Positions 37,513 to 63,081 of a stretch of DNA of 64,000 bases are shown here, in pieces. Below the pieces are notes generated by a model. The model did no database searches, was not told the DNA's origin, and saw nothing but the letters and a program-made list of their open reading frames with translations. The translations under genes were made by a program, and so were the position numbers. How positions within the stretch are numbered: the first letter of the stretch is position 1; each line of letters begins with the position of its first letter. Where the stretch lies: assembly GCA_963921195.1 (NCBI GenBank), contig OY992536.1, forward strand, positions 109,456,778 through 109,520,777, given 5' to 3'. This stretch comes from Pegoplata infirma. Taxonomy: Eukaryota; Arthropoda; Insecta; Diptera; Anthomyiidae.

Positions 37513-37825
37513 ATTGTAATTTATAAATAGGACTCCTTTTAATCACAAACTGATTTTTTCCCCCAAAACAAAATTTAGCAAAAAATTGTGAAAATCGCGT
37601 CGTCTGCACAAAAATGCCGACTATCAGTGCTGCCAATATTTAAAAATTGTTAAATCTGTTTCTGTAAAAAACAGAGATGTTTAACAAACATCCCTGCAAA
37701 CAATTGGACAAGATAATCACACAAGTCACAATTTGTTCGGAAAACAAGCACCACAAATCGTTTTTGAGCATAAATAAAGTTTAGCGAACTTTGTTTAAAT
37801 TAAAAAAAATATATATATGACCTTA
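37513..37825 (-). promoter_or_regulatory. Aos1 upstream region
   Basis: Contains the Aos1 leader and proximal promoter by position. No TATA, DRE or other named element stands out by eye. Confidence 0.4.
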
Positions 37826-41636: not shown

Positions 41637-41927
41637 TACACGCAAAAAAAAATCTGTGTCGGAGTGAGCAAAAATCTGGCATAATTTTACCAAGAATATG
41701 CTAAAACTACAACCGACGAAGTAGTTTTCGTAATTTAGCCAAAACACTTATGTAAAAAATTTTGAAGAAAATGCTAATGCTATTTAAGCAAAAACTTGGT
41801 AAAATATACCAAAAGAAATATGGTGAAATATACCAAAATTATTAGAAAAGGTGACTAAAAATAATGCTAAAAATTTCCACATTTATGCTAAAATAAATTT
41901 TCTATAAAATTTTTGTAAAAATTTGTA

Positions 41928-42696: not shown

Positions 42697-42748
42697 TATA
42701 TTTGTTGAATTTAAAATTTTCACAGAATAAATCCATATTAATATAATA

Positions 42749-43294
42749 GTGGAGCTCACATCATTTGCTTTTTGGCTGATAAACGGTGCAAACTTGATAA
42801 ACTAGGAATATTTGCAAAGTGTGCAAAGTCACAACAACAAATTATATGGGTTTGACATTTCATTTGCACTTGCATTTATCCTCACGAATTTATTCATATC
42901 CTCACAAAAAAACAAGTGTATATTTCATTTGCACACGAAAATAAAATATATCTGTGAGGAAATAACAAACAGAGTTGCATTTAATTTGACATTTGAACAA
43001 TCATAAAAATATTTTTAATTAAAATGTGGTGTTTGTTTAAAAAAAATAATTAAATCAATTAACAAAATAAGAAAAATGTTTTTATTAAGTAAAAAAATAA
43101 ATAAAATGATAGTAAACGATGTTAAGAAAATTGTTTTGTCTTCTTCTTAACTCTTGTTTGGATGTGTGCGTGTGAAAAAATAAAATTTATATCAGTTTCC
43201 AATTGAATAAAACTGGGACGCTCACAACAAGTAACAAAATAATTTATTTTATCTGCATAATATGGAAATCGGGTGCAAATGACGTGAAAACCAC
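42749..43294. mobile_element. 546-bp MITE in A, 5-bp duplication TAATA
   Basis: Ends GTGGAGCTCACATCATTTGC and (reverse strand) GTGGTTTTCACGTCATTTGC, flanked by TAATA at 42744-42748 and 43295-43299. The intact target is in element C at 63417-63421. The superfamily is unclear. Confidence 0.88.
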
Positions 43295-43374
43295 TAATAA
43301 ATGTTGTGTAGGATTTTATTTACCACCGACCAACTGACCCTTTATGTACAATTTTCTCCAGTGACTGCTGCCTA

Positions 43375-43720
43375 CACGCAAAAAAAAACTTGTGTCGGAG
43401 TGAGCAAAAATCTGGCATAATTTTACCAAGAATATGCTAAAACTACAACCGACGAAGTAGTTTTCATAATTTAGCCAAAACACTTATGTAAAAAATTTTG
43501 AAGAAAATGCTAATGCTATTTGAGCAAAAACTTGGTAAAATGTACCAAAAGAAATATGGTGAAATATACCACTATTTTTAGAAAAGTTGACCAAGTATTT
43601 GCTTAAAAATACAGCGACAAAATTTATTACACAAAATCTTATTAAAATTATGCTAAAAAAATTACCATATTTATGCAAAAAAAAACCAAATTGTAACAAG
43701 TTCTTATTAAATTTTGATAA
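43375..43720. repeat. Left terminal and subterminal repeats of element B
   Basis: After the terminal CACGC repeat come repeated TTTACCAA, TTGGTAAAA, GTACCAAA and TTACCA motifs and their inverses. The right end has the mirror arrangement (62150-62230). Subterminal clusters of short motifs in both orientations are the transposase-binding pattern known from CACTA elements. Confidence 0.65.
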
Positions 43721-43929
43721 AGAATTTGTGTATTTGTTGAATTTAATTTTTTTTTAAATAAGCCCCTTGGTAAAATTATGATAAACAAATGATCAAACTT
43801 GCCCTTAAACTGCGTAATTTAGCAATTTTATTTTAATAAATTTTGGTAATACTTGCTGAATTTTTAAAAATATTTTATGAAAACTCATTTTATTTTTTTT
43901 TGGAAAAAAACCTTTATTTCAAATTTTAA

Positions 43930-44465
43930 AAAGTATTATATAGTAAATCACAAAAGTAATATATAGTAAACCATAAAAAGTAGTACATATGTATTAAATC
44001 ACAAAAGTAACATATTGTAAATAACAAGTATTTCAAATACTTATACAGTCTTATATGTGTAAAAATTTAAATTTATGTTAAATAATTTAAATTAAAAATA
44101 AATATATGAGTATTTTTTAACTATGAGTTTTAAAACGAACTTTTAAAACAGATTTCTAAAGGCATTATCATTATAAAAGACAAAAAGAATTAACATTAAT
44201 TAACAAGCATTAACATTATATTTAATAACAAGAGTGTATTGTAAATCAGAAAAACAATATGTAGTTAATCACAAATATAATATATTGTAAATAACAAGTA
44301 TTTTAAATACTTATACACTATTATACATTTATATGTGTAAAGATTTAATATTAAATAAATTATTTAAATGAAAAATTAATATATGAGTATTTTTGATATT
44401 TATGATTTATAAAACGAACTTTTCAGATTTCAAAGGCATTAACATTATATAAGATAAAAATAAAA
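43930..44465. repeat. Tandem duplication, about 250-bp unit, in B
   Basis: Both units contain ATATTGTAAATAACAAGTAT, CTTATACA, TATATGTGTAAA, ATATGAGTATTTTT and AAAACGAACTTTT in the same order. Non-coding, downstream of the partner gene. Confidence 0.7.
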
Positions 44466-44559
44466 GTCAATTACTCCCAATTCCAAAAAAAAATGTCACC
44501 TATAATAAATGAAAAATTATAACAAGACAAATTTTTTACGTAAGTATCTTAATAGTTAA

Positions 44560-44726
44560 ACCCTTATGATGTTGACTTTTTTAGAATCTTTTTCTTGTCG
44601 TTTTGTAGGGGTTTTCTACATAAATTTGAAAATTACTTCAAACAAAATTTGAAATTTTGAAATTTTTTATATTAAACCCCTACAAAAAGACAAGAAAAAG
44701 ATTCAAAAAGTCAACATCATAAGGGT
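44560..44726. mobile_element. 167-bp TTAA-flanked MITE
   Basis: Ends ACCCTTATGATGTTGACTTT and its inverse, with arms of about 55 bp running through CTTTTTCTTGTC. Flanked by TTAA at 44556-44559 and 44727-44730. TTAA duplication fits piggyBac-type (or Kolobok) elements. Confidence 0.8.
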
Positions 44727-45024
44727 TTAAGCAAGTTTTGTTTTCATTTTTATATAACAAATTGTCATGATGAGACTTTTTCTGGAATAGGGAGGTTAAC
44801 ATAAAGTTTTAAATCTGATGAAAAAATTTTAAAGATAAAAATAAAGCAGAAAAAGCGAAATTGTTCAAAACATTTTATGTTAATTTCATTACTTTTAATT
44901 TAAATAAAAATTAAGGTATATATAAAAAACTTAAAAAAACATTTTTTTATATATTGAAAATATATGTTTCAAATTTAATTTTTAAATGTTTTTTTTTTTT
45001 GTAATTTATAAAAATAAAACTTTT

Positions 45025-48000
45025 TTAAGCATTTTCTAAGTCATTTAAAAATGTGAGAAGAAACGGATTTTCATTTTCCAAATCTATATTGAAAAAATAT
45101 TTTTGGATAAAATTCCAAATATTTAAACATTCATATGGAAAATCGATATTTAAAGTTTTATGTAATTTAAAACTAAAAATTAAGGCGTCCAAATATGTGT
45201 CGAATTTTAAGGACACCTGTCCAAAAAAAACTTTACAAAATTCAAATGGGTTTCCAACTGTCACTATTCTTATTAATTCTTCTTTATGAGTGTATTCATC
45301 TATATTATGAACTTCAATGGAAAATGCTTTTTGGGAATCCCCAATAGTGACACGTTTTTTTCCCCCTTTGTAGCACGTGTTTGGTTTTAACACTCCATGG
45401 AGCATTTGAAATATACCAATAGCCAACAAATCTATATTGTAAATGAAACAAAATAAAATAATTTAGAATTGTTTACATAAAAAATGATGTATTCATAAAT
45501 ACCATTGTTTGTTTCATCATTTTCGGACATCATTTTTAGTTTTGTCAAAAGTACTGGATCTTTAATTGAACTTTTAAACAATGTTGCGTGTTTTTCTATA
45601 AGTAGGCTCCAATTCGTGTAGTTGAAGTTTTTGTTATAGTGGAAGTTGAAATCTATGTCAACCTAAAAGTAATTAAATAATATGCTATTAATGCGTTCAA
45701 AATACACATGGTTTTGCAAATCATACCGCTCTCTAACCCAGCAAAAACTTTGTAATGGGTACCCCTTTCCATCTCGGTTACCTGGTAATGGCTATGAATG
45801 CTACTAATTACCTCCAATGACATCACCGTGTTAAAGTAATTAACATTGAAATTGGGAGGTAACTAGTCACTCATTTTTTTTAAACCCCTAAGTTAATTAC
45901 ATGGTAAGTAAAGTTTTTGCTGGGAATTTTAGGCAGTATTAAAAGTATTTTTAAGCAAAAAAAAATTATACCGTTTAAATTTTTTTTAGCGTTTTAGAGT
46001 AAACAATTTATTAAAAATGATTTTAGATTTTTTTACAAATTTCAAAATTCCGATTTTTTTTATACCCTCCAACTACAGTATGGGGGTATACTCACTTTGT
46101 CATTCCGTGTGTAACGCATCGAAATATCGGTCTAGGACCCAATAAAGTATATATATTATTGATCCGTGATCGATTCTAAGACATTCTAGCGATGTCCGTC
46201 TGTCCGTCCGTCTGTGGAAGACACGATACAGTCCAAAATAAAAGTGCTAGACTCGTGTAATTTGGCACATATATGTCTTATGTTCATAGGCTGGTTAAGC
46301 TCCGAGATGGGCAAAATCGGACCTGGGGAAAAAGTTCCCCATTGAGGAAGTAAACCAACCCATGAAAAAAGGTAACTTTATAGTTTTTTTTGTATTTTTG
46401 TTAAACAAATAAAACATTTTTATGGTTTTTGGGCCGTCCCCTTTTGTGGGCGTGGGTATTAGCAAATAATTTATATAATGATGAAATTGTATATCTTTTG
46501 TACAAAAAGCTAAGTAATTAAATTTGTAAACATTTTTGATCAGAGAGAAGGTGTCCCCAAGGACCCCCGACAAGCCCCCCCCAAAAAAAAAACGCCCCTG
46601 GAATTTTTTTTTCAACGTTGGAGGGTATACAAGATTCGGCAAAGCCGAATTTAACACTCTCACTTGTTTTTTTAACTTCATATTTCCTTCCCTGTGTTTG
46701 TTGTAAACACATTCATAAAATGTCTTTAAAATTCAGCAGGTCTTTATTTTTGTTTAAAATTTGAAAAAAAAATTTATGATTGTTTAAAACAACCAAATCA
46801 AAAAAAAATTGCCTTATAATTGAGTTATGACGATTTTTTAAAAATTTATTTTGGCTTTAAAATAATTTTTATTCCAAAACGCTAAAAAAAATGTCATTAC
46901 ATTTTTATGTCCGGGAAAATTTTTCAATATTTGTTTTTTTTTTTAATTTTTTTACTACAAAACCCTTCAAAAAAAACTGTGTCTGAAACTTAGAAAATTT
47001 TTAGCGTCCAACCTGAATCAAATTGCGTTGCGTAAAGCGTAACGCCCAATAATTTTTCGTTTCTAATATTTAAATGTGACGTACCTAAATCAAACGGACG
47101 TAAAAATTTAAAATTTTATATGTTTGTTTTTGTTTTTTTTACGTCTTGCGCGACGCAATTTGATTCAGGTTCGACCCTTAAGTTTTGTTTCTGGAGAAAA
47201 TTGAAAAATTTTCTTTTGTGGGACAGTTTAGCGATAAGTCCAATTTGTATTTATCACGTGAAAGGCATGTTAGTGATATACCCCGTTACAATATATATAT
47301 TTTGTGGAGTCAAAGTCCGATATATCGATGCGTTACACACGTAATGACAAAGTAAGTATACCCCCTTTCTGAAGTTAGAGGGTATAAAAACGCAGTATTC
47401 GGCTTTGACCAAAAAGGTGTACTAGGTTGGACATGGTTAGCAAAAATATATAAGCAAGTCAATGTTATATCCGGTTATGCCGAATCTTAAAACGTATATT
47501 TTAAGAACTCGTTGCATGACATAAATGTGTTATTAAGATACCTACAAAATTTTATAATAGCCCTGTTTTCGCACAACCATATATATGTTAACATTAACCG
47601 AAAACGCATTCACGTTTAACAAAATTTACTTGGCATCACTGTAGTTAAATGTCAAAATTTATAAAGGCAAACACGAACAAAAAGGGTTGTGTCAATGCTA
47701 TTGCATTAAAAAAATGCGAACTTGACTTCACTTTTTATCGAAGCTTAAAATTAACGCCGATAATTATACAAGCTAAAAATAAGTGTGGATAATTTAAATT
47801 TGTATAGGTAAGCGTATATACGATTTTGCGAAAACAGGGCTAATATTGTCCTACCAGTTCGGAACATTTTTGGTGACTGTAAAGAGGCCACAATTCAAAA
47901 GATTCTTTAACATTATTTGACAAAGTTAACTTTCTATACTCGGATGTAGCTCGCCAATGTTGAGTAACCGTGGTCCAATCCTTAGTATATTTCAATGCAT

Positions 48001-49618
48001 TCCTAATGGCTTCCATTTCTTTGGTATTAAGTGTTGTTTTTTCAGCTGTACTTGGGTTTTTAGCACGTTTGATTTTTTTTTCTTTTATATATACATTAAT
48101 TTTTTCCAAGGATCTTTTTCGTCCGCGATATCGGTCCCATATCTTTCCTCTGGGTGGGAGAGCTGCATCCTTTTGGGAAAAATACGTTTGCTACAAAAGT
48201 AAAGTATATTAAAAGTTTTATTTAAGAGACGAGACAATTTTTGTATACTTACTCTTAGTTCCGTTGGAAAAATTTGAACAATTTCATTTGCCACTTCACG
48301 ACATACTTTTACACCCATTGGAATCAACTGTTCGACATAACCTTGGACAATCTTGTGCACAATAAATATTCTGTCGTTAGCAGTTAACATGTTGCGTGCT
48401 TTATAATTTCGTAAAACAAATTTTCCATCAGCTGTATTAGATAGAATGTCAATCACCTTAAGAATAATAAAATTTTTTATTAGTATCAAAATATATTAAG
48501 GTTTTCACGATCCTGTGCTTTTTTATCGTTAAGGTTTTTAGATTATTTTGCAAACTTTAATACCAACAATTTCATGATTTAATTTGTATCAATATGTGTG
48601 TTCGTTTACCGTACTACAATCTACTCATTTTTACTGGAAATTTTCAATACAAAAAGTAAACAAAACTTTCCAGTTGTAGCTATTTTTAATAGCAACAAAT
48701 TTGGGTAAACAAACATACCTTATATGTGGACCCAGGCACGAATCCAGGGGGGGGGGGGGGCTGGGGAGTTGGGAATGTGACGTCTACCACCAAAACGACT
48801 TAAGAAAAATATAGAATGAAAATTATCAGGAGGCTAATCACGTAAAACGATAGACGATGCATAAATACATATCGTTTTGAAGGGAAATTTGAAAGTTTTT
48901 CTTTGTAAAATTATTAAAGAGTGTTGTTTAATCCAGAAACATTAAAAAATTGGAAATATTTTGATTAGTTTAGGAGCAACAAGGCTCCAAAAATCGACGA
49001 TAGTTAACTATAGTTTTACGTGATCACAGTCCAGGAAGTAAAAAAAATCCTTAGGATGAGTATATGTGTGCTGATTCTTAACGTCAGCTCAATAGGTATT
49101 GGTAGTGTAGAATAAAACTATTGCTTTTTAATCGGTATTGGTTTTCAATTTGAATCGGTATCAACGGTAAGTTAAAAAATCTCAGGTATTTTTGAAATGA
49201 AAAGACAAAGTCATACGTGCTTTACCTTTGGATTTGGAATTTTTCTGGACATTGAAGATGGTGGATGCTCAATATTTTCATTATTATTATGTGTTGATGG
49301 TATGTTGTCGGCTTTTTCAATGATGGTATTCTGGACTTTATGAGAAGTTGATGGTATGTTGTCGGCTTTTTCATTAGTGGTATTCTGGACTTTATGAGAA
49401 GTTGATGGTATGTTGTCGGCTTTTTCATTAGTGGTATTCTGTTTTTTACGATAAGATGAGGAAATATCACTAAGAACACTATTTTCCGTCTCCGGAGTTT
49501 TACAATGATCTACTTCGTATAACTTTTCAATATCCACAAATTCAGCATCGTAGAGCATCTCAGTATCGTCAAATTCAAGTTCAGCTAATGGATCTTCTGA
49601 AGATCGCGAATGTTCCAT
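45025..49618 (-). CDS. Five-exon partner protein of the element B transposase
   Basis: Exons in order 49618-49226, 48456-48253, 48190-47855, 45662-45503 and 45431-45025; 499 residues and every junction in frame. Exon 1 is acidic (LAELEFDDTEMLYDAEF) and carries three copies of an 18-residue repeat (EKADNIPSTSHKVQNTTN-like). Exon 2 reads DGKFVLRNYKARNMLTANDR and GVKVCREVANEIVQIFPTEL. Exon 3 has YFSQKDAALPPRGKIWDRYR then a basic stretch and TVTQHWRATSEYRKL, FELWPLYSHQ. Exons 4-5 hold DIDFNFHYNKNFNYTNWSLL and DYLDALIFSF-like hydrophobic text ending DLENA. I do not recognise a domain; the layout recalls multi-copy uncharacterised insect proteins, from memory only. Introns 47854-45663 and 49225-48457 contain MITEs. 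It likely works with the transposase; its role is unknown. Confidence 0.82.
45739..45925. mobile_element. 187-bp MITE (CCCAGCAAAAACTTT ends)
   Basis: ACCCAGCAAAAACTTTGTAA and inverse AAGTTTTTGCTGGG flank GGTAATTA-type inverse motifs. Inside intron 3 of the partner gene, 77 bp beyond exon 4. Confidence 0.7.
46062..46672 (-). repeat. TATACCCTCC dispersed repeat, inverted copy
   Basis: Starts TATACCCTCCAACTACAG and ends GGCAAAGCCGAATTTAACAC, CTCTCACTTGT; the reverse of the copy at 58826-59523. In the same intron. Confidence 0.8.
47004..47180. mobile_element. GGGTCGAACC MITE, copy 3
   Basis: GCGTCCAACCTGAATCAAA to inverse GATTCAGGTTCGACCC. It has an uninterrupted GTACCTAAATCAAACGG core, one of two empty sites for the insertion at 35263. 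It is followed by a 3' fragment of the TATACCCTCC repeat (47280-47390). Confidence 0.8.
47563..47846. mobile_element. 284-bp MITE (AGCCCTGTTTTCGCA ends)
   Basis: AGCCCTGTTTTCGCA and its inverse TGCGAAAACAGGGCT bound AT-rich DNA with TATACG/CGTATA motifs. The right end is 8 bp from the exon 3 donor of the partner gene, so it inserted next to a splice site. Confidence 0.75.
48600..48720. repeat. Dispersed palindromic repeat (CTACTACAGCTGG family), copy
   Basis: Related to 5325-5449 and 59980-60065: GTACTACAATCTACTC, GTAAACAAAACTTTCCAG. Within the first intron of the partner gene. Confidence 0.5.
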
Positions 49619-49720
49619 GGTTTCTGTTTAATAAATAAAAAATGCGTCAATATTTTTACGTTTAAAAGGTTTTGAAATACAAATGTGTCAAGCTTATACG
49701 TGCAAATTACTTTAAAAGTA

Positions 49721-51024
49721 CCCAAGTAGAAATTCATGACGGTTATAAAAATAAAGCGTCTTTAAAGCACTCTTTAGTAGAAATTCATGACGGTAATAAG
49801 AAAAAGCGTTTTCAAAACACACCATCATGAATTCATACTTGGGTATGAATTCATGATGGTTATAAGTAAAATAAAATCAAGTCTTATCAAAAATAACTCA
49901 ATTTTAAAGCATAACTTCATAACGCTTTTCGAACGATTCGTAAAAGCGTTTTGAGAATACTTTTCAACTAAACCTATGATTTATTGCACTGTCATTCAAA
50001 AAATAAGAACTGTCAAAATTGTTTTTGGCTTGATTTGAGCAAAAAATTGGGTTTGCTATCGTGATTTTTCCATTACAAAGTATTTTCAACATTATATCCT
50101 ATTATGTCCTGCATCTATTGATAAAATTGGGTTATAAAATGTTGTTCATTTCATTGAAGATATTGGATACCTTTGTGACAAAAATATGATTTACAATCAT
50201 AGGTTTTGCATTTCATTTTGTCATTTTGTTGCATTGGATTCTATTCTTGTAGAGTGGGTATACCTAATGGCGTTTTATTTTGAGAATTTGTATGAAGCAT
50301 TTACAATTGATTTTAAGAAACTGGTTTCAAAATCGAAGTCAGAAAACTGAGATATTGTAGCTTCCATATTAGCTACATCATCTGCGATGTGAAAAATTTT
50401 GTGAAAATTTCTTGTTTGTTTCTACTAATTTTCTTAAAATTGTCTTCGCATTAATCGGTTTTGAGGTATCTATTTTTCTGGTTGGAAAAATACGACAAAC
50501 TGTATAAAGAATTTAAAGTGTCTGTACTGCTACAATTCCACTACATTTTTTAAAATTATTGCTCAACCATATAACAAAAATATCTAATTTTCCAATTTTC
50601 AATATTCATTAAAACGAAAGATTTCTTCTAAAACCATAAAGTTATGACATCAGATATTTTATTAAAATTTTGTTGCAATATTACATTTTCTTCCAAACTT
50701 TAACATTTTTACAACTAATTTTTGCAGCAATTTCTTTCCTATACCAAGATACAACTTATATCGTCCAGTACGACAAAGTTTACAAAAATTTTAAAATTGC
50801 TTTATTTTTTTGCTTTTTAACGCTTTAATAATGCTTTAACGAAGCGTTCTCAAATCAACATTATAAATGTCTTTAAAAACGCTTTATATAAACCGTTTAA
50901 CGGTGTTATCATTAGGACTATCTGAAAGCGCTCTGAGGATGGTTTTCCGTATGATCTGAAAGCATTCGTACTACCATGCAGAGCGCTTTAAAAGCGTTTT
51001 TACGGTTGTATTTTTCTACCTGGG
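49721..51024. mobile_element. 1.3-kb element (CCCAAGTAGAAA ends), TA duplication
   Basis: Ends CCCAAGTAGAAATTCATGAC and (reverse strand) CCCAGGTAGAAAAATACAAC, flanked by TA. Internal GCGTTTTAAAGCGC-type repeats. It occupies most of the space between the transposase and partner genes. No gene inside. Confidence 0.75.
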
Positions 51025-51441
51025 TAGTCATTTATATTATTCAAAATACGTGTATAAAAAAAAAATCTTTTGCCACAGGGCAAGCGTCCCAAATTATTAA
51101 TATTATAGCTATTATTTTTTTTAAAACTTTATGGTTAGATTTATTATGACTGAGTTATGATTGTTTTCTATGCATAGGCCCCTAAATTACTAAAGCATAC
51201 ATATCAGATTATATACCTTATATACACATTTGAAGAGTAAACCAATTTTTCTACATTAAAAGAATCTAAACGTCAGATTTCGATTTACGATTGTAAAATC
51301 TTTAGGCAAACATATACTAAATCTAGCGAAAACTAGATAGATAACACTGAACTTCGGAAAAATATATTTTTAACTACGTATCTTTTTTAAAGTGAAAAGA
51401 CTTACTTTGATTTTTTTTTATATAATGGCGGAAGACGTTTT

Positions 51442-53823
51442 TTAAAGAAAATACTTTTTTGGTCGTAATATCTCATTGCCATCACTTAATACATGTGACC
51501 ACACTGGGGGTCCATCAAAAATGTCTATTTCAAAAATGTTCGTACCTTCATCTTCATCTCCTTGTAATTCATAGGACATAAAATGTTCGTTCCAAAAATG
51601 TTTTTGCTTTTTTAGTTTGAAATAAACTTTTTCATTTTGTACAACCATAATTTCTACGATCAAATAAATTTGTGTTATATTTGATACTGTTTTTGTCAAA
51701 AGTTGATTGTTTGTATAAATATATCCACAGTATTTAATTTGACTGTATATGCTTAAATTGTTTGGAGATATGTTAAGTTTGGCACAATAAGCGTCGAAAT
51801 CATTACTATGTTTTTCGTGAAGTTTTTTACATATAAGAGAACTTTCCGTTTCTGTTATTATCTGTCTAGCAAATTTAAAATTTAATTTTTTGCTTATCGA
51901 AAGTAAAAGGTTTTTTCTGCTGTTTGTCGCTTTCGTATATTGCTTGAGCTCTTTATGTTTTGCTTCATATCTAAAGCACCAGTATTGCTTTGGAGGCCCT
52001 GAATACTGTATAACTCGGGGATAATGGGTAAGTATATGGTACTTTGGTTTCAAATGGACTTTGAAAAGCCTTTTAAATTCACTGTTGTGTTTTTCAATCA
52101 GCATTCGAAGCTCATCTAATTCCTCTTCACCAAAACTTGTACGATGTAAATAGTCCAACATCTTTAAAAATAAACAAAAAAAATTCCATACCTCATCCAA
52201 AGGTGATATTTTGTGTCCTATCATAATTGGTAAATTATGAACTAGATTCCACATTTCTCTGGCAGAAGTATCAAGTCTTTTTCTTTCTATGTGTTTTTTC
52301 GTGATATCTTTAAACGTGTATTTATCTTCGTACGAAAAGTTTTTTTTTATGATATTAAAACCTTTTAAAGTAAAGATTTTTTTTTTTATGAAATACTCAA
52401 TTATGTGAGCCACGTTACAGTGAGCAATGCCTTCATAAACGTCGTGCATTAAATCGACTGCAAAATTTTGTGTGACATGAAATCCTCTAATGTTGTTGAA
52501 TATTGAATTCTGTTGTTGACCATTTGCAATACCATTAGTGTAATTTTCACAGTTTCTCAAACTGGAAGTTATTTCAGACGTAAGGTGTCTACAATCTTCT
52601 TTGACTTCTAAGCAAAAACGACAATAATTGTTTGCGGAGAATGATTTTGCAAAGTTAAGAGTACAATTTATACCCAAATTATCACCTGTCACCAAAGCTA
52701 AAACAAATCGAATATTAACAACATTTCCATTTACGTTAAAATTAATTCCATCATTTTGTAGGGAGTTAATTTCTTTTATTAACTCACGAAGCATTTTTTT
52801 ATTTCCATATTTTTTAATATCCAAAGATTTATATAATGCCGCAACGAAAATTGAATTTAATTTTGAAGAGTTTTTAATGTTTGGAAAGGAATAATAAAAT
52901 GCTGTTACAGCTTGTGTTCCACTATGAGATCCCAAAACATTATTTGTCTCGAAATCATCCGTGTACATTATAAATGGAATTGCTGTTTCTCCATAAAGAT
53001 CTTTTTTGTTTGTCCAAGTCTTCCCTTGCACAAAGTTTTGTATTTCATCACTTGGTAGTTCAAAATTCCTCATCTCCTCCAAGTATGTTTTTAAGTAATT
53101 ATCTTTTTCAAAAAAATGCTTTATTTGAAACTTTATAGGCATTATAATAAATGACTCATTGATTTTTGAACCTTGTTGACTTGGTTCACTTGCACGGACT
53201 GTGGACTTTTTTACTTCAAAAACTGTTGAGGATTTATACAAATTTTCTTCTTCTAGATATTTTATAAGTTTGTACTCTGTATTTTTGTTTTGAAAAGAAG
53301 TTTGGATAACATCTATTACGTTAGCAATACTTGAATTATTGGCACATTTATTTATGATTGTCAGTATTTTTTTCAAAGGATCCAAAATGTTTTGCTCCAC
53401 TTGCTGAATAATGTATTGAACATCTTTAAAAGTAAAATTGTTTTTATCTTCCAATGATAAAATAAATTCTAAAACGTTGTTTTCAAACGTGTTTTCAAAG
53501 TTTTGGAATGGTGGTGAATTGTCATCCATTAAATGATCTGTCGGATTATCCATGAACATTTCTCTTTCTTCAGTTTCACTTTCAGTTGCATTTAAAATTT
53601 CATTATCAGGACGATTCGGCATTAAGTTGTTTCCCGAGCTATTTGTAAACTCATGGGCATTCCTCAAGTGCCTCTTAAATACAAAGGGGCTACTAAAAAT
53701 TTGCTCACATGATGTTTCAGGACAACTGTAATTAGATTCTTTCCCATATCCATGCAAGCGTTTGAAATGCGTAAGAAAATAGTCGACATTATTGAATGTG
53801 AGTTTGCATATTTTACAGTTCAT
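51442..53823 (-). CDS. Zinc-finger CACTA-like transposase of element B
   Basis: One uninterrupted 793-residue frame. Two C2H2 fingers open it: C3-x2-C6-x12-H19-x4-H24 and C34-x4-C39-x12-H52-x4-H57. A linker (60-230) precedes a core whose layout matches Transposase_21/CACTA enzymes: FIMYTDDFE (D289/D290), RFVLALVTGDNLGIN (D381), a CRFC knuckle (401-404), VDLMHDVYEGI (H460, D461), and LKPKYHILTHYPRVIQYSGP followed by WCFRYEAKHKELK (E620). D290/D381/E620 are candidates for a DDE triad, from pattern only. The C-terminal 150 residues are an unnamed beta-rich tail. Family naming is from memory of plant CACTA proteins (TDGFNPF, INDFPAYG blocks) and needs a profile search. The start is the first methionine and lies directly before finger 1. 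Confidence 0.85.
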   Translation of the reverse strand: MNCKICKLTFNNVDYFLTHFKRLHGYGKESNYSCPETSCEQIFSSPFVFKRHLRNAHEFTNSSGNNLMPNRPDNEILNATESETEEREMFMDNPTDHLMDDNSPPFQNFENTFENNVLEFILSLEDKNNFTFKDVQYIIQQVEQNILDPLKKILTIINKCANNSSIANVIDVIQTSFQNKNTEYKLIKYLEEENLYKSSTVFEVKKSTVRASEPSQQGSKINESFIIMPIKFQIKHFFEKDNYLKTYLEEMRNFELPSDEIQNFVQGKTWTNKKDLYGETAIPFIMYTDDFETNNVLGSHSGTQAVTAFYYSFPNIKNSSKLNSIFVAALYKSLDIKKYGNKKMLRELIKEINSLQNDGINFNVNGNVVNIRFVLALVTGDNLGINCTLNFAKSFSANNYCRFCLEVKEDCRHLTSEITSSLRNCENYTNGIANGQQQNSIFNNIRGFHVTQNFAVDLMHDVYEGIAHCNVAHIIEYFIKKKIFTLKGFNIIKKNFSYEDKYTFKDITKKHIERKRLDTSAREMWNLVHNLPIMIGHKISPLDEVWNFFCLFLKMLDYLHRTSFGEEELDELRMLIEKHNSEFKRLFKVHLKPKYHILTHYPRVIQYSGPPKQYWCFRYEAKHKELKQYTKATNSRKNLLLSISKKLNFKFARQIITETESSLICKKLHEKHSNDFDAYCAKLNISPNNLSIYSQIKYCGYIYTNNQLLTKTVSNITQIYLIVEIMVVQNEKVYFKLKKQKHFWNEHFMSYELQGDEDEGTNIFEIDIFDGPPVWSHVLSDGNEILRPKKYFL

Positions 53824-54049
53824 TTTAAACTCCTATTATGATGGAAAGAAAAAATATACTTTCATTTTTTCTGTTTAACAAAATGGATATAAATGGAGGA
53901 AGTGCTTTGTTCCGGACTATTGATTCAGAACGAACATAGCAATTATTGCTTAGCTTTATTCTCGCTCTTAAATTGGACATTCAAAATCGTATTCGATCGC
54001 AATTAGAAAAATTCAGCCATTAGCTAAATTTCTGCAAAATGTTTTTATA
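53824..54049 (-). promoter_or_regulatory. Transposase upstream region
   Basis: Immediate 5' sequence of the transposase gene. AT-rich, with no named promoter motif visible. Confidence 0.3.
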
Positions 54050-54795
54050 TACCGAAATCTGTCCAAATACTTTTTTTGGTCATACTCTTCAATCGGACAA
54101 AAAGTCCCAAAACATTTTTTTTTAAATACAGGATCTTTCTTTAAAAAAAAAATCGGAAGTTTAAATTAAAAAAAAATTCCAATTGTTAATATTCATTTGT
54201 CAACAAATTGTTTTAATGACCCAAAAAATTTTTTTTATTAATTTTAATGCTGTAGAAAAAATCCGCATTTTATGACCACCAATTTTGCGTTAACATGGAA
54301 AAAGGTAAATATTTTCATTTCCTATAAGAATACACTAAGGTGTACTAAAATTAATAAACAATAAAATATTTTTTTTGTTTACAAAAAATTGGTGGTCAAA
54401 AGAATTGGAGGTCATAAAATGCGTATTTTTTCTATAACATTTAAAAAATTACTTATTTTTGGGTCATTAAAAATTTTTTTTTGACAAATGAATATTAAAT
54501 TTTTTTTTAATTTTCTATGTTTAAACTTGGGGAAAAAAAATTAGAAATATTTTTTAAAATTTTTTTAAAAAATGTCTATAAAAATTATAATTTTTCAGTT
54601 CGACCCTCGTAATACATTTGTTATTAACTAAATCTGCACGCTATAAAGCTTAAACTAAAGCTTAATAAATTATCTACAAAATACTATATAAGAAAAATAC
54701 CCGTTTGATAAAAAAAACATCTGGTATTTTAAATTTTGTCTTTAACAAATTTCATCTACTATTGCTTTGTGTGAATACTTTTGTCCGGCACTGTA
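54050..54795. mobile_element. Degenerate Tc1-like element with internal fold-back
   Basis: The right end (reverse strand) is CAGTGCCGGACAAAAGTATT next to TA. The left end near 54050 only loosely matches (TCTGTCCAAATACTTT). Inside, TTGACAAATGAATATT/AATATTCATTTGTCAA and TGACCACCAATTTT are inverse pairs (54180-54500). Confidence 0.45.
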
Positions 54796-55877
54796 TATGA
54801 TCACTAGGGCAAGTACTTTAATGAAAATGCATGTTTTTACTCAGCATTGTAAACATAACATAAATTAAATCCGAATCAATAAATTTGCAGTGAAATGGCA
54901 TCGATTTGTAGTTGCATATTTTTGCATTTTTGGTATAAATGCATATTTTATAATTTTTTTTTTTTAATTTTTATCAATATTTTTTCAAAACCTCCTTATG
55001 AAAATTCAAACCCTAAAATCCCCTATTTATTATAGAAAAATTAATTTATTTATAGAAATCATATTCTGAAGTATTTCTTATAGATAATTGATTCTGGAAG
55101 TGTATTTTTTAGATTTTGAGAAATGACAAATGTTGCTTTTATTCGACCTTCTTTTAACATATTTTGAGAAATGTTTCCTATTTAAAATGCTCCTGTTTTA
55201 CTTTACTAATCGTAAAGAACAAACGTTTTCAAATTTAAGATTCGACAGGAAAGCGTTTTTTTTATTTCGCTTAGAGTCAGGGTGGGGTCTTTGGTCAATG
55301 ATTTATTTTTTTTTTTTCTTTTAAATCGGAAAATTCTAAAAAAAAATTTTTTTAAAAATAAATCATTTTCTTTAAAATCGGAAAATTCTAAAAAAAAATA
55401 TTTTAAAAATAAATAATTTTTTTAGGAAAAAAAAATATTTAAAAATTACTTTTAGAAAAATGTTGTATAATAATTTTTTTACTCCAGAAATATTTAGTGA
55501 CATTTTTCACCGGGATCTGACATTTTTCACCAGGCATATTTAACTTTTTATGTTTCCAACTAACCAAAAATTTTCAAAGTTAGTTGAGCAAAGTAAGTAA
55601 GAAACTTTTTAAAATGTTTCTAAACATTTCCCAACTTTTTGAAAATCTTTAAGAAAATATTACGGCTATGTATATCATCTTCTGGTTCGAAGCGTACCCA
55701 AACCATTTTTTATTTTTGGAAATTTCGTTTCATAGTCAGGGTTAAAAAGTGTACTTTTCAAACTTTTAATATTTGATGAACTGATTATTGATAGAAAAAA
55801 AGGGATAATGTACACTAAAAAACTAATTTTCAAATCAAGTAAAAACAATCTCATGTTTAAGATAAAACAGTGACTAA

Positions 55878-57950
55878 CAGGGGCGTATCCAGGATTTTAT
55901 TTCGGTGGGGGCCCAACATTTTTTTTCAATTTTTTTTTTTTTGCAAAAAATTTACGTTTTAGAAATTTTCTCGATCTTTTCCTTGAACTGAATGTAACAC
56001 AATCAGATTCTTCATTTTTGTGTAAGTTTAAAACTGTTGGGGGGAAAAATATTTTTTTATACTTTAAAGTTTTTTGAAAGACTTAATCCTTTTTTTTTAA
56101 CTGTGAATTGTATCAGATGCTGATACAAGATTCAGAATCTATTTTTTTTTTTTTTAAAGAAAAGTCTAAGATTCTATGACAATTTCCAGTTAAGACAGTT
56201 TTTGTTATAGAAGAAGTCAGACTCTAAATCATATTTTCAATGGAAAACGTTTCTCCGAAAAAGTCACTTTAGAAAATGAGTCTATTAACATATTCATAAA
56301 ATACTTTTCCAAACGAAAGGACTCCGGTTGTGAGACATTTTCCCATAATCAGAGATATTTCTAGTTTTTTTCAGATTCTGAAAAATTCTACACAAAAAGT
56401 TCTAGAATCTGAGAAAATCTTCGCTTTTTCTATAAGAAAAACCTGGTACCTTTTTAAAAAGAAAACAGTATAGAAAGTCTTAGACTCTAAAACATTTTTG
56501 CTAAAGAAAAACTCTTGGATTCTGAGAAAATTTTTCTATAGAAAAAGTCTAAGATTCTTAGACATTTTTCCTATAGAAAAAGTTTCTAATTCTGAGACAT
56601 TTTTCCTATAGAAAGTCTAAGATTCTTATGGAAAAAGTGTCACATTCTTCGACATGTTTCTTACAGAAAAAGTCTCAGATTCTTCGACATTTTTGCTATC
56701 GAAAAAGTCTCAGATGCTTAAACACTTTTCTATAGAACAAGTCTCAGATTCTGAGACATTTTGCCTATAGGAAATTGTCAGATTCTGAAACATTTTTCAT
56801 ATAGAAAAAGCCTCAGATTCTAAAAATTTTTCCTAATGAAAAAGTCTCTGATTTTGAAACATTTTTCAAATAGAAAAGCCTCAGATTTTTACAATAGAAA
56901 AGCTCTCAGATTTTGAGCATTTTTTTCTATACAAAAAGTCTCAGCTTGTGTCTCTAAAACATTTATTCTATATAAAAAATCTACGATTTTGAGATAATTT
57001 TTCTTAGGAAAAATTCGTTGATTCTGAAACATTTTTCGTGACATTTGAGACATTTTCCTCATTTTCTCAGATTCAGAGACATTATTCCTATAGAAAGTCT
57101 CAGATTCTAAAACATTTTTCATATAGAAAAGCTTCAGATTCTAAGAATTTTTAATAGAAAATATCTTAGATTTTGAGAAATTTTTTTAAATTCAGAGACA
57201 TTATTCCTATAGAAAGTTCTCAGATTCCGAAACATTTTTCATATAGAAAAGCCTCAGATTCTGAAACATTTTTCATATAGAAAAGCCACAGATTCTCACA
57301 ATTTTTTATACAAAAAGTTTTAGATTCTGAGACATTTTTCCTATAGAAAAAGTCTAAGATTCTGCGAAAAAGGCTAATATTTTAAGGCTCTATTCCTATA
57401 AAAAAGTCTTAGGCCCTTACCACAAGAAAACAAAAAGTCTATTTTAACAAAAGTTTTATTTTAAATTTCAAAATTTCAATACATTTTTTGAAAGTCGATT
57501 TTAAAAACAAAAACAATTTGTATGGAAATAAAATTAAAAGCTGCTTTTAAATATATTTTATTTTTCTATGGTAAGGCTGTTAAATTCTGAGAAATTTTTT
57601 TTTTAAGAAATAGTCTCGTTCTGAGAAATTCTTCTTAAAGACAAAATCGCATTTTAAAATTTGACTACATTTTACTTATAATTCGGTCCATTTTTTGTGT
57701 ACATAAAACTTTATGTTCTAAGATATTTTTTATTTGAATCTTAAGTTGGAAAATTTCAAATTCTAAGAAAAAATTTTCAGATTTTGAGATTTTTTTAACA
57801 GAAAAATTATCAGTTTCAAAACATTTTTCTTCAAAATTTTTTTTTTTATTTTTTAAAGAAGATTTTTAATATAATACTTGTGATTTGATACCAAATCCTG
57901 AAATTTGTGAAATCATTTCGGGGGCCCGGGCTCCCCTGTATACGCCACTG
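55878..57950. mobile_element. hAT-like element carrying a 36-bp minisatellite
   Basis: Ends CAGGGGCGTATCCAGG and (reverse strand) CAGTGGCGTATACAGG; each is followed inward by GGGGCCC. Flanks GTGACTAA and GTGACATA match at 6 of 8 positions. Most of the interior (56160-57420) is a minisatellite. No transposase frame. The stretch 54796-55877 before it is AT-rich with no gene I can support. Confidence 0.7.
56160..57420. repeat. Minisatellite, about 36-bp unit
   Basis: About thirty degenerate copies of CAGATTCTGAGACATTTTTC plus CTATAGAAAAAGTCT. The CTATAGAAAAA core resembles that of the array at 899-1450, though the rest of the unit differs. Confidence 0.8.
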
Positions 57951-58129
57951 GTGACATAAGTCACCAAAGTTTGTTTTTTTCTCAATTTGAGAATATTCAT
58001 AGACACTTTTAATATGACTTGAGTAACAAACAGCATTTAAAAAATAAAATGAAAGAACTGTGATTTGAATATGTTTTATTTTTAATTCAAAGATGCTAAA
58101 AAAAATTAAAATTGACCATTATAAATATA

Positions 58130-58506
58130 TCGTCACCTAAAATGCAAAAGGCCTAACAATTAATTAATTTTACAGGAGGAGCAAAGAACAGTATTGAATT
58201 ATATTTAAATTTGTTAATAACTTTGTTGCTTTTTAATGAATTTGGTTAAAAGTTTGGGAGGACGTTCTTTTAATAAATATGAATTAAAATAAATCAAAAA
58301 ATAGTAAAAAAGTTTTTGTTTAGCTACGTTCATTGGCGATTGCCCAAATCACATGTTGTTTAATTTTGGCTATAAAATCGCTAATTTTTATAATGCAGTC
58401 CTAATTTTTTGTGGAGACGTGTATGTGGATAAAATAATCCAGAACCAATCAAAAAACTGATTTTGAATTTTTTGTTAGTTATGGCCTTTTGCATTTTAGG
58501 TGACGA
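58130..58506. mobile_element. 377-bp MITE, TA(TA) duplication
   Basis: Ends TCGTCACCTAAAATGCAAAA and inverse, continuing to AGGCC. Flanked by TATA on both sides, so a TA or TATA duplication. Confidence 0.8.
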
Positions 58507-58825
58507 TATAATTTTGTTTTGAAATAAAACAACTACAAAATTTTTTTATGTATATTATTTTATTTTACTACAGAATAATTAAAAAATACATTTGTACTAT
58601 ATGTAGGAAAAATATATATCATCGCTGCTTCAAAGAAAACACCAAACTAAAAACTTTTAAAGATGCCAACAAATTTGCTTAATTTTGACCTTTCGCGGTA
58701 CTTTAAAGTAATAAATATTTTAATAATATGTATTGCAATGTCCTAGTTCCATTAAGGTGAGTTATAAAAATCCGCCAAAAGTTTACAAATACACTTGCTT
58801 TCGTAAGAGCAGCGACAGTATGGAA

Positions 58826-59523
58826 AACAAGTAAGAGTGTTAAATTCGGCTGTGCCGAATCTTTTATACCCTCCAACATGCAAATAAATAAAAAAATTGC
58901 AGGGGCGCCTTCTTTTTTTTTTGGGGGGGGGGGGTCGGTAGTGGTAATTGGGGGCACAATTCCTCTCGAATAAGTGTTAGAAAAAAATAATTCTTATGCT
59001 TTTTGCACTAAAGAAATACAAATTTATCATTATATAAAAAAAAAAAATTATTCCACGCCCAAAAAAGGGGGCGGACCGTAAAACGATATTTTCTAATTCT
59101 GTGGGTCCAAATGCAGGACCTTGAACTTCTTGTAGCATAAAAATGTTGGATTTGTTAAACAAAAACCCAAAAAATCATTTAAAAATATGATATTTTTCAG
59201 AGGTTGGTTTAGTTCTTCAAGGGGGAACTTTTTCCCCCCTGGTCCGATTTTGCCCATCTCCGAACTTAACCAGCCTATGAACATAAGACATATATGTGCC
59301 AAATTTCAGGAGTCTATCACTTTTATTTTGGACTGTATCGTGTCTTCCACAGACGGACGGACGGACAGACGGACGGACAGACGGACATCGCTAGAATGTC
59401 TTAGAATCGATCACTGATCAATAATATATATACTTTATGGGGTCCTAGACCGATATTTCGATGCGTTACACACGGAATGACAAAGTGAGTATACCCCCAT
59501 ACTGTAGTTGGAGGGTATAAAAA
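58826..59523 (+). repeat. TATACCCTCC dispersed repeat, full-length reference copy
   Basis: Runs from ACAAGTAAGAGTGTTAAATT through TATACCCTCCAACATG, a GACGGACGGACAGACGG block and TATATACTTTATGGGGTCC to TTGGAGGGTATAAAAA. About 700 bp. No long open frame. Confidence 0.8.
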
Positions 59524-60109
59524 AAATCAAATCATGTAAAGCACATATTCCAGGAGACAATTTCAAGTTGTTGATACCCTCTTGTACTCCATATAAATTT
59601 CCACATCTTCATTTTTCATTTTTCTGTTCAAACTTTTTAAACTTTTTCTTAAATTGTCTATATTATTTTTCACCGAAACGAAGATGATAATGTGCCAGCG
59701 AATTTGTTCAAGTTTTATTGTTTAAATTATTTTTTGAAATATTATTTTATGAGAGACTTAAACGTTTACAATTACAAAAGACTCCGTAGGACAAATTTTG
59801 TTAAATCGGGACTCTAATCTAAAATAGGGCCGTTATGGAACTCAGTCTCCTCGCGATAAATGTTAATAAATACATTTGTTATGATTTTTGTTATTATTTT
59901 TTGTATATGCGTCCACAAAAGGAAGCGAGTCGAGAATACAAAAATATGTCTATTCGATTACCTAAAATTAAAATTATTTTTGCTACATCTGGAAAGTTTT
60001 GTTTACTTTAAATTTCCAGCTGTAGTAAAAAATAGAAGATTGTAGTAAGGTAATCGAAAGGACCTAATATACCTATTGCGTAATAAAAGTATAAATAAAA
60101 CCCTTTTAG

Positions 60110-60337
60110 ATGTTGGTTTAGTTCTTTTAGCTTAACCAGCTTATGACCATAACACATATTCATGCCAAACTGCAGGAGTCTACCACTTTAATTTTGGATT
60201 TTATCGTTTCTTCCACAGACAGATGGACACTACTAAAATGTTTTTAGAATATGGGGTTATAGACCGACAGTTTGATGTGTTACACACGGTATGATAAAGT
60301 AAGTATACCCCCATTCTGTGGTGGAGGGTATAAAAAT
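60110..60337 (+). repeat. TATACCCTCC repeat, 3' fragment
   Basis: Matches the 3' part of the copy at 58826 (TTAACCAGCTTATGACCATA, GGTGGAGGGTATAAAAA) with more divergence. Confidence 0.7.
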
Positions 60338-60364
60338 ATGTTTCTTCGAAAAATTGTGTACTAG

Positions 60365-61056
60365 GGTGGGGCGATTAGTATGGAAGGAAAAAAAATCTTA
60401 ATGGGCGCTTCGCGTTTCTGATTCTTGGGATTGTACTGAGAAAAAAAGTCCACAAGGCCATACGTCTACGGTAAAAATCGAGCTTACAATTTTTGACTTG
60501 CAGTTTTTTCTCAGACTTTATTTTTTTGGAAAATTTGCAATTTTCTTGGGCTCATATTTCCCAAACTATTTGAAATTTTGACTTATTTTCAAAAGTAAAG
60601 TTGTAGCTATTGTCTCGGGCTACAAAAGTGCAAAAATTTGTTCTTAACTTTTGTATTGGCTACAATTTTTGGATCGAAAATCTCAATGGTTTGGTTGTTA
60701 TAGGTCAAAATATCCAAAAAACGTGATAAAAAGTGGTGAATTTTCTACATTTTCGACTTTTTGACCATGAAAACGAAGTTTTTCTAAGTAATATGTTCAG
60801 AGAAATTGTAGCTCGAGACAAAAGCCACAACTTTACTTTTGAAAATAAGTCAAAATTTGAAATAGTTTACAAAATATGAGCCCAAGAAAATTTGAAAATT
60901 TTCCAAAAAAATAAAGTCTGAGAAAAAACTGCAAGTCAAAAATTGGAAGCTCAATTTTTATCGTAGACGTATGGTCTAGTGGACTTTTTTGCTCAGTATA
61001 ATCCCAAGAATCTGAAACGCGAAGCTCCCATTAAGATGTTCAAATCGTCCCACCAT
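60365..61056. mobile_element. Fold-back element with about 245-bp arms
   Basis: Left GGTGGGGCGATTAGTATGG and right inverse AAATCGTCCCACC. The arms remain complementary through TGCAGTTTTTTCTCAGACTT, GGGCTCATATTT and GACTTATTTTCAAAAGTAAA. The centre is near 60700. Confidence 0.8.
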
Positions 61057-61073
61057 ATTGTTTATTAGCTTAC

Positions 61074-61210
61074 CTTATGTTTATCAAATTTTAAAGCAAG
61101 TTTTTGTATTTTTAATGACTGTAGAGTTTCTAAATATTGTGTAGGATTCAATTTACCACCGACTAACTTGCCCAGCAGTTTTCGTCCAGTTTCTCCAATT
61201 CCAGTAATTG
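61074..61210 (-). CDS. Possible additional upstream exon of element B
   Basis: The minus strand reads GETGRKLLGKLVGGKLNPTQ then YLETLQSLKIQKLALKFDKH before a good GTAAGC donor. Elements A and C carry a degraded counterpart (GGTCGGTGGTAAAT..., 63424-63470). It may be a leader exon or part of a third gene of B; no matching acceptor was established. Confidence 0.3.
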
Positions 61211-61309
61211 CTTATAACGTTTTATTTTATAGATGACTGCACGATTCTTCTTGCAGTGAAGGATTCAATATAGATTCACGAATTTATTAACCAGCACCTG
61301 TAAAAAACA

Positions 61310-62245
61310 GAAAATAGTTACAGCACAATAAGGCAAAATTGCAGTTTATGGGGCACGCCGAAATTTAAATTATTAAGAGGTTTTTTGCGAAGCCGACTTC
61401 GACTAACTCCATCCCTTAGATGCAAACTTCCTTAGACGCAAACATTATCCCTTAGACAAGAACTCCATTCTTTAGACGCAAACTCCATCCCCCAGACGCC
61501 TGTGGACAGGATCCGCCAACTCTGCGAAAATAGTTTTTTTTCGTATCAGGATTTACGCGTTTGTTTCATGTGTTAAGATACTAAACCACTAATTGTTCAA
61601 TATAAACGGTGGCGTTTTATTTTTAATTTTTGATGTTGCCCATAAACTGGAATTAAGACTATAATTCCTCTTGTTCACGTGAAAAAAAGATAACTATTAA
61701 ACTTTACTGTCGTCTTCGGAACTTACAAATTTATTTTCTTATAAATATATGTATTTACTTTTTCGAAATGTTATGTATCATTTAATTATTTTTATGAAGC
61801 CTCAATAAAATCTTTACTTACTTACTTTTATTTTTTTTAATAACGCGCACCACTCACACTCAAATTAAATCACAAATGAAAATGGTGGCTGGTGGCTGGT
61901 GGGCGCTAAATTTTGGTTTCTTTTAGTTTGCTTATTCGTATTCGTCGCTTTTTTTTTTTTTTTGTAATCGTTTTTACACAACATCACATGTTTACACTGC
62001 CACAATTTTTATCATATTTTGAATAATTTTGACAATAGGAAAATTGTGCAAGTAAATTGCGTAATATACACATTTATTTAGCATCAACCAAGAATACTTG
62101 GTTATTTTGCATAAAAAATGAATTATGTTACTTTAACATCTACAAACATAATTTTAGCAAAAACTTGGTAAAAAATTTTTTTTGGTAGGAAAAAATTTTT
62201 ACCAAGTAGGCTTGCTCATTCTGACACAGATTTTTTTTTTGCGTG
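61310..62245. repeat. Right subterminal region of element B
   Basis: Contains a patch of CTTAGACGCAAACTCCATCC-type short repeats (61400-61500), then AT-rich DNA, then TTGGTAAAA/TTTACCAA motifs and the terminal repeat ending GCGTG at 62245. Confidence 0.6.
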
Positions 62246-62247
62246 TA

Positions 62248-63081
62248 CGCTTTTTCTTGAAGTGAAGGATCCGCTATAGCTTCACGAATTTATTTAGAAG
62301 CATCCTATAAAAATAGAAAATTATTACAAAACATAAATTTTTAATTTAAAAAACTAGTAAACTCCATTGGTATTTTGGTTAGGAGGAACACTTACTTTGT
62401 GATTCCATTTGTAACTCATCAAAACAGGTCTGGACTCCATTGGCTTTGCTATATAAATGACTTTTTAGGTTTTAATTTTATAACTAAAGGGAGGACTGGT
62501 GCCCACGCTCTTTATTGTAGTGAAGGATTCGCCATAGCTCCAAAAATTTATTTAGCAGTACCCTGTAAAAATAGAAAAATATTACCAAACACTAATTTTT
62601 AACTAAAAATCTATTAAACCTTATTGGTGTCTTCGGAATAGGGGTATACTCACTTTATCATTCCATTTGTAATTCATTGAAACAAACGTCTGGGACTCCA
62701 TTGGTTTTGCTAAATGAATGGTGTTTTAAGTTATGACAGCAAAATTAACTTTAGCATTTTTTTTATCTTACATTTATTTATCTTTTAAAAAACTAATTAT
62801 TTAGTTTTATTTATTAATTTATTTTAATTTTATTTATCAATTTCCTTTTTACGTTTTTATAACACAAAAAATAAACGAAGCACGCACACAAAAATACAAA
62901 ATGAATATGGCGTTCTGTGTTTGTTTTTTTTTTTTGTTGTTTTCTTTCGATAAATTTGTGTGCAAGTAATTTGCGTTATTGTGCAAGCTACTTGGTTATT
63001 TTACATAAAAAACTAATTATGTTACTTTAACATCGACAAGCATAATTTTAGCAAAAATTTGGTAAAAAAAATTTTTTGGTA
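62248..63081. mobile_element. Element A, right part
   Basis: Continues element A after B: CGCTTTTTCTTGAAGTGAAG onward matches element C from 63497. It ends at TTTTTTGGTA where element C is inserted. The last about 50 bp of A should lie beyond C, outside the window. Confidence 0.82.
62262..62750 (-). repeat. Tandemly duplicated exon-like unit in A
   Basis: Two units of about 255 bp. Each, on the minus strand, has a short open stretch starting ATGGAGTCC and ending TACAAATGGAAT(G/C)A(T/C)AAA before GT(G/A)AGT, reading MESQTFVSMNYKWNDK and MESRPVLMSYKWNHK. Each is followed downstream by an ACAG/ATAG acceptor and NPSL/DPSL-type text with stops. Element C carries the same pair (63490-64000). Confidence 0.5.

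Follow-up and report, generated by a model that had tools for sequence, protein, structure and literature searches.

A large two-gene DNA transposon, probably of the CACTA/CMC type, with a DUF4769-matching partner gene, in the fly Pegoplata infirma

The CACTA/CMC superfamily of DNA transposons, its spread among animals, its 2-bp target duplications, its subterminal repeats and its two-gene plan have all been described before (PMC1636069, PMC4158355, PMC8978399, PMC4592977, PMC12730594; these sources are cited here and below from excerpts). Animals known to carry CACTA-clade transposases include Aedes and, on the evidence of an accession listed in the same source, Drosophila pseudoobscura (PMC1636069); for CACTA elements, having two genes is described as the standard arrangement (PMC4158355). 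We describe here an 18,871-bp insert at positions 43375-62245 of a 64,000-nucleotide stretch of the genome of the anthomyiid fly Pegoplata infirma (assembly GCA_963921195.1, contig OY992536.1, positions 109,456,778 to 109,520,777; the whole stretch is called the window). It is very probably an autonomous cut-and-paste CACTA/CMC (CMCT) DNA transposon that works as a two-protein system. Its ends and TA duplication, two intact genes, the adjacency and covariation of these genes in relatives, and near-identical sister copies at distant sites carry this reading. A preliminary description of the window had supposed that such an element was not a standard described family; given the animal CACTA/CMC elements and the two-gene plan already on record (PMC1636069, PMC4158355), this was too strong.

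Among the described systems, the animal TRC elements (SmTRC1 of Schistosoma mansoni and a 9.2-kb element of Aedes aegypti) resemble the window element in their CACTA-like transposase, their 2-bp duplications, the insects among their hosts and their more than one protein product, but their ends start with CCC rather than CACGC, SmTRC1 obtains its products by alternatively splicing a single unit, and a DUF4769 partner goes unmentioned in the excerpt (PMC1636069). Plant CACTA/En-Spm elements likewise encode a transposase and a second protein and have direct and inverted subterminal repeats; their transposase carries Transposase_21, DUF4218 and DUF4216, and their ends are CACTA with 3-bp duplications, in contrast to CACGC and TA here (PMC4158355, PMC8978399). 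The second protein of the window element is a DUF4769 match and can be set beside plant ORF2/TnpA by description, not by sequence. Sly1-1 of Neurospora crassa is a CMC element of 11.5 kb with a transposase and a conserved second gene of unknown function, but it is fungal, homologs of its two genes are divergently transcribed, and the second genes are again likened by description (PMC4592977). ESTA and other CMCT elements share an EnSpm-like transposase with C(2)C and H(3-4)H motifs and a resemblance to RAG1, and ESTA also has TA duplications, but they are fungal and their accessory gene is a TET/JBP dioxygenase (PMC12730594). RAG1, Transib and ProtoRAG show about 10% identity to the window transposase, and the window duplication is 2 bp. 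The target duplication of Transib is 5 bp, and RAG2 differs from the DUF4769 partner; in the window element the partner is a DUF4769 match and the module likened to a chromatin reader is part of the transposase.

The left junction, at 43375, reads ...CTGCCTA followed by CACGCAAAAAAAAACTTGTGTCGG, and the right junction, at 62245, reads ...GACACAGATTTTTTTTTTGCGTG followed by TACGC; the termini of the element are thus CACGC...GCGTG, each bordered by TA. When the flanks are joined and one TA is removed, they align without gaps to an unfilled copy of the target at 63417-63594 (178 bases, four mismatches), which fixes both ends. The first 33 and last 34 bases form an inverted repeat with 30 matches, three mismatches and one gap; an equal or better score was reached by 8 of 20,000 random 40-mer pairs drawn from the AT-rich DNA of window positions 1-43000, and for that reason the repeat was rejected as sole proof of the ends and is not decisive by itself. 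Repeats of the CTTGGTAAA type, both direct and inverted, are 33- to 66-fold denser in the ends than in the interior, 7-mers such as TTGGTAA and CTTGGTA having five to six copies in the two 500-bp ends and one to two in the 16.5-kb interior. The junctions, the TA duplication, the gapless empty-site alignment and the reading frames together bear out the earlier claim of a DNA transposon with two intact genes and base-exact limits.

On the reverse strand, an open frame at 51442-53832 encodes the transposase; its first ATG, at 53823, starts a protein of 793 residues, and the frame has its own stop at 51442. The gene was rightly called intact. Its N-terminus is C2H2 zinc-finger-like, and it has the catalytic residues D289, D381 and E620, with C401xxC404 and H596xxxH600 between the second D and the E. 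The predicted fold of the core is a RAG1/Transib-like RNase H fold, that of the C-terminal tail a BAH fold. A protein search returned 65 homologs at E ≤ 0.001, from hosts that include Lucilia, Haematobia, Brassicogethes, Linepithema, Aedes, Diaphorina, a sea cucumber and cichlid fishes; those from Lucilia and Haematobia are the best among the named relatives, in keeping with a fly host. No relative of the transposase turned up when viral contigs were scanned. Across an alignment of 34 proteins (the window transposase and 33 of the 65 homologs), D289, D381, C401, C404 and H596 are invariant and H600 and E620 are present in at least 90%. Searched against Pfam at E ≤ 10, ten of these 34 proteins match Transposase_21 (PF02992; best E 8e-5) and six match DUF4218 (best E 7.8e-4), while DUF4216 is absent among the families listed, the best 25 of 53. 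For the window transposase itself, with no DUF4218 match at the same threshold, the strongest Pfam matches are to C2H2-type zinc fingers and fall short of the family cut-offs; the others are weaker still.

C(2)C and H(3-4)H motifs between the second catalytic D and the E are a signature of the CMC group (PMC12730594, PMC4592977), and the window transposase has both. The element also shows the 5'-CA...TG-3' termini and a target duplication within the 2-5 bp of CMC/CMCT elements (CACGC...GCGTG, TA and an empty site), the two-gene plan of CACTA/EnSpm with transposase and accessory protein, and direct and inverted subterminal repeats of the CACTA/EnSpm kind. It shares the 2-bp duplication of TRC elements; the CCC core of TRC and the 5-bp duplication of Transib are both lacking. 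Because neither the CACTA pentamer nor the CCC core is found, we file the element under the CMC clade rather than under CACTA in the strict sense. The KDZ (Zisupton) group, considered first, was dropped, since its duplications are 8 bp (PMC12730594) and the homologs match Transposase_21 instead. A giant virus-like or Maverick/Teratorn-type element was also set aside, the target duplication being TA and no significant match to a polymerase, capsid or integrase having come from a Pfam scan that covered five of the element's seven open frames with 100 or more residues.

The partner gene, on the same strand, has five exons and four introns, all GT...AG, and encodes 499 residues, just as first described; a five-piece layout at locus L043 can be read, from its sequence, as the same exon structure. 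Residues 55-226 match DUF4769 (PF15992) with 24.5 bits against a gathering cut-off of 23.9, a narrow pass. Sibling partner pieces score above the cut-off at L042 (43.2 bits), L047 (65.2) and L050 (43.0) and below it at L052 (20.0), L043 (22.0) and L041 (15.4). DUF4769 is a domain of unknown function, named in one paper of the literature searched, where it is tabulated among expanded gene families. In Lucilia cuprina, one protein (P0019, CVS40_6090) joins a transposase of the same family to positions 1-68 of DUF4769, suggesting that the two are paired in this fly as well. Protein searches found no match either with the partner alone (7,992 candidates scored) or with a six-row partner alignment (7,989 candidates scored), so that the case for the partner outside this genome comes down to the Lucilia fusion and the match to the Pfam family; the partner profile likewise had no match to solved structures at E ≤ 10. 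As separate observations, the Lucilia host gene annotation CVS40_6090 appears to be a transposon gene pair, and the partners at L041, L042, L047 and L050 have an N-terminal stretch that looks SAM-like by eye, with Pfam SAM not among the matches, and that the partners of the window and of L043 apparently lack. Beside the partner of the L022 element, positions 1-4168 of L042 hold a tetranucleotide array of about 4 kb, read as (TDRQ)n.

A search of the genome (1.38 Gb, 813 contigs) with the transposase gave at least 66 matches, the window included. Among the matches listed, 20 of the 65 besides the window are stop-free frames that cover nearly the whole query at 31-54% identity, and the eight closest relatives are fragments at 83-93% identity. 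Downstream DNA was inspected at 12 transposase loci, and at ten of them the partner stands beside the transposase on the same strand; these ten represent nine lineages, since L023 and L024 are near-identical. A direct tblastn search with the window protein turned up four, L042 was recognised by eye and afterwards by its DUF4769 score, and five of seven further loci were detected with a profile built without those loci, for which the best chance matches were E 0.038 in 45 kb of the window outside the element and E 0.32 in eight loci of miniature inverted-repeat transposable elements (MITEs, see below). The identities of transposase and partner among 11 copies, the window included, are correlated with r 0.95 (53 of 55 pairs; 0 of 5,000 permutations). 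Subsets, computed from rounded matrices, give 0.90 without L024 and 0.88 without L024 and L014 (0 of 5,000 permutations each). Judged from these sequences, the two-gene plan is general in the relatives.

Similar ends with both genes recur in an 8,334-bp element at L015 (C5:131641403-131649736), where transposase and partner, respectively 41% and about 33% identical to those of the window, lie between ends CACGCC... and ...GTGTG that match the window element's ends over 37-38 bases. The preliminary description had looked for such joint recurrence, and for the two genes not to be scattered over unrelated loci; their side-by-side position at ten of 12 related loci agrees with the latter also. The elements at L023 and L024 (proteins 96% identical) are about 5.2 kb long and carry both genes between different ends, CATACACAG, with a target duplication that reads TAA or TA. 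The second exon of the partner follows the transposase at a distance of about 9 kb in L010 and of 3 kb in the window. Within the window element, five stretches (46052-46670, 46999-47181, 47290-47430, 58824-59528 and 60129-60336) have matches elsewhere in the window; they are probably nested repeats, and the first of them, in partner intron 3, is probably a nested insertion. As the relatives are of about 5.2 and 8.3 kb and the window copy holds such recurring pieces, size is not constant in the family but varies with intron and repeat content.

Sister copies at distant genome positions are nearly identical, with 5 differences in 2,493 coding sites between L010 and L011 and three to five among L028, L029 and L031. 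The likeness of L028 and L029 continues to the ends of the compared sequence, and these two may be a segmental duplication pair, as an alternative to transposition. The ratio of nonsynonymous to synonymous substitution rates (dN/dS) is 0.11 between L014 and L015, at a dS of 1.9 that is near saturation, and 0.39-0.98 in near-identical pairs, on very few changes, or not computable. These sequence comparisons point to recent mobility and to selection that has acted on the transposase over a long time, and do not imply activity of the window copy itself. Ten of the listed 66 transposase matches, fragments at 52-93% identity and several with stops, fall within about 0.6 Mb at C5:187.6-188.2 Mb, a graveyard of relatives of this subfamily. 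Behind the L014 transposase, on the opposite strand, there is a partial second transposase (C5:105120986-105121984).

The 16-base target core is present without mismatch 806 times in the genome, on the forward strand in 401 cases and on the reverse in 405, where the reversed pattern yields 1 and 0, and this abundance is explained by the target being a repeat with the same ends as the element. The uninterrupted target copy of the preliminary description therefore stands as a gapless alignment, though not as a unique one. Eight loci with MITE copies (L001-L008) were examined. That at L001 is a 1,269-bp, TA-flanked element. It shares 95% identity with the large element's ends over its first 220 bases and 91% over its last 151, and most of its interior has no counterpart in the large element; the copies at L003, L005, L006 and L008 align with it along its whole length, those at L002, L004 and L007 in part. 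In all five end-to-end copies the two flanking dinucleotides agree, being TA in L001, L005, L006 and L008 and CA in L003 (positions 617-1925), so that the target may be any of several dinucleotides. Since the repeat that flanks the large element is a MITE with ends like its own, the large element has jumped into a non-autonomous relative (MITE1), and the abundant 1.27-kb relatives with common ends are probably mobilised by the same machinery. A second copy, MITE2, entered a TA near the right end of MITE1, the remainder of which appears just past the window (locus L046). MITE1 is thus an insertion nest of two non-MITE stretches (about 767 and 548 bp), the large element and MITE2.

Several observations weigh against an autonomous two-protein CACTA/CMC transposon. 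The strict CACTA/EnSpm pentamer and 3-bp duplication are replaced by CACGC and TA, and the window transposase has no Transposase_21 match even at E ≤ 10, only some of its homologs having one. No second full-length copy of this exact subfamily is among the matches listed. The ends vary from one relative to another: the L015 element is flanked by TA and TT, L023 and L024 have ends unlike those of the window, and window-like ends are absent near L010 in the 20 kb downstream. The partner was not found at two of the 12 loci, L026/L049 (7 kb) and L053 (6 kb, C1:303.08 Mb), where it may be farther off or lost. Five of the ten positive loci supplied the partner profile, leaving five of seven tests independent, and two of those five positives are the near-identical L023 and L024. 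With one copy per deep lineage the correlation drops to 0.57 (36 of 5,000 permutations), and for the window with the four lineages outside the profile it is 0.68 (215 of 5,000). The function proposed for the partner, lastly, we infer from linkage alone.

Other explanations concern chiefly the partner. The two genes share a strand, with the transposase upstream and about 1.8 kb between them, and could form a single transcription unit whose primary transcript is alternatively spliced to transposase and DUF4769 exons, as the Lucilia model, which joins the two, would have it and as maize Spm does for tnpA and tnpD (PMC1636069). But the window transposase ends in its own stop, partner exon 1 begins with its own ATG and the Lucilia fusion may be an annotation error; a single unit is possible, though we would not favour it. 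It is also rather doubtful that the partner, instead of binding the ends, protects the element, for example against host silencing. Such a role is supposed for the TET/JBP genes in fungal members of the same clade (PMC12730594), and plant ORF2 is open to additional domains (PMC8978399), yet a partner present at ten of 12 loci and covarying with the transposase looks more like a regular component, and there are subterminal repeats that could need a reader.

The element might instead have captured the partner from its host or engulfed it as a chance neighbour, a view that the annotation of DUF4769 only as a domain of unknown function and the other repeat in partner intron 3 could suggest. Nine lineages besides the window, however, have the partner in the same place and order at transposase identities down to about 31%, and this co-inheritance largely contradicts capture, which we hold to be very improbable. 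Segmental duplication or an assembly artefact, for which the empty copy about 1.2 kb away might speak, is scarcely credible given single-base breakpoints, the TA duplication, inverted ends, and ends common to MITE copies and an independent two-gene element.

For a two-protein transposon of the CACTA/CMC type the following mechanism may be proposed. The transposase would cut at the CACGC ends through its RAG1/Transib-like DDE site and insert at TA, steps for which the motifs and predicted fold argue strongly. The DUF4769 partner would bind the CTTGGTAAA-type subterminal repeats and help to assemble the ends. In maize Spm the subterminal repeat layout serves TnpA, and the odds that the partner is the functional counterpart of plant TnpA/ORF2 seem to us about even. 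The BAH-like tail might contact histone tails and so bias where and when insertion happens; a steering of integration by chromatin state is speculative. Taken together, an animal RAG-like two-component system independent of RAG1/RAG2, with a BAH-bearing transposase, an obligatory DUF4769 cofactor and targeting guided by histone marks, is a tentative and on balance unlikely proposal. If it were true, the orphan domain DUF4769 would be explained as a transposition cofactor and target choice would not be made by DNA sequence alone.

As far as the literature was searched, DUF4769 as a partner and the BAH-like domain of the transposase look new, and a Repbase consensus for the lineage may exist. 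For DUF4769 a likely identity is offered, namely the gene that accompanies the transposase in a transposon lineage widespread among animals, and gene models with this domain, such as the fused Lucilia protein, may be genes of transposons rather than of hosts. A RAG1-like transposase with a built-in BAH-like domain would be a compact system in which chromatin-guided integration is directly testable, and with open transposase frames in several lineages and near-identical copies in the genome, natural elements could serve activity assays.

Table 1. Coordinates of the element and of the surrounding MITE copies in the window
Feature	Position	Strand	Basis or remark
MITE1, left part (insertion target)	41639..43374	+	broken by non-MITE stretches ~41928-42694 and ~42749-43296
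TA target-site duplication, left copy	43373..43374		flank reading and alignment
Terminal inverted repeat, left, 33 bp, starts CACGC	43375..43407	+	inverted-repeat alignment
Left subterminal region, CTTGGTAAA-type repeats in both orientations	43375..43874		7-mer density
Partner exon 5, stop 45025-45027	45025..45431	-	gene model
Partner exon 4	45503..45662	-	gene model
Repeat within partner intron 3, inverted relative at 58824-59528, 77% identical	46052..46670		window self-comparison
Partner exon 3	47855..48190	-	gene model
Partner exon 2	48253..48456	-	gene model
Partner exon 1, ATG at 49618	49226..49618	-	gene model
Transposase gene, single exon, 793 residues	51442..53823	-	zinc-finger-like N-terminus, RAG1-like DDE core, BAH-like C-terminus
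BAH-like C-terminal domain, coding region	51445..51879	-	folded separately (prediction)
Right subterminal region, CTTGGTAAA-type repeats as on left	61746..62245		7-mer density
Terminal inverted repeat, right, 34 bp, finishes GCGTG	62212..62245	-	inverted-repeat alignment
TA target-site duplication, right copy	62246..62247		flank reading and alignment
MITE1, right part	62246..63081	+	alignment to MITE
MITE2, contains uninterrupted target copy 63417-63594	63082..64000	+	end just past window

In the left flank, host exons lie on the reverse strand at 36958-37542, 24522-25016, 19418-19948 and 40378-40710, and frames there match, in this order, ThiF in two pieces about 12 kb apart, one of them below the cut-off, a proteasome subunit and the Tctex-1 family. 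Simple-repeat open frames of the LDNFKIHLENFK type occur on the reverse strand at 15463-15849 and 39436-39885, and likewise in locus L040.

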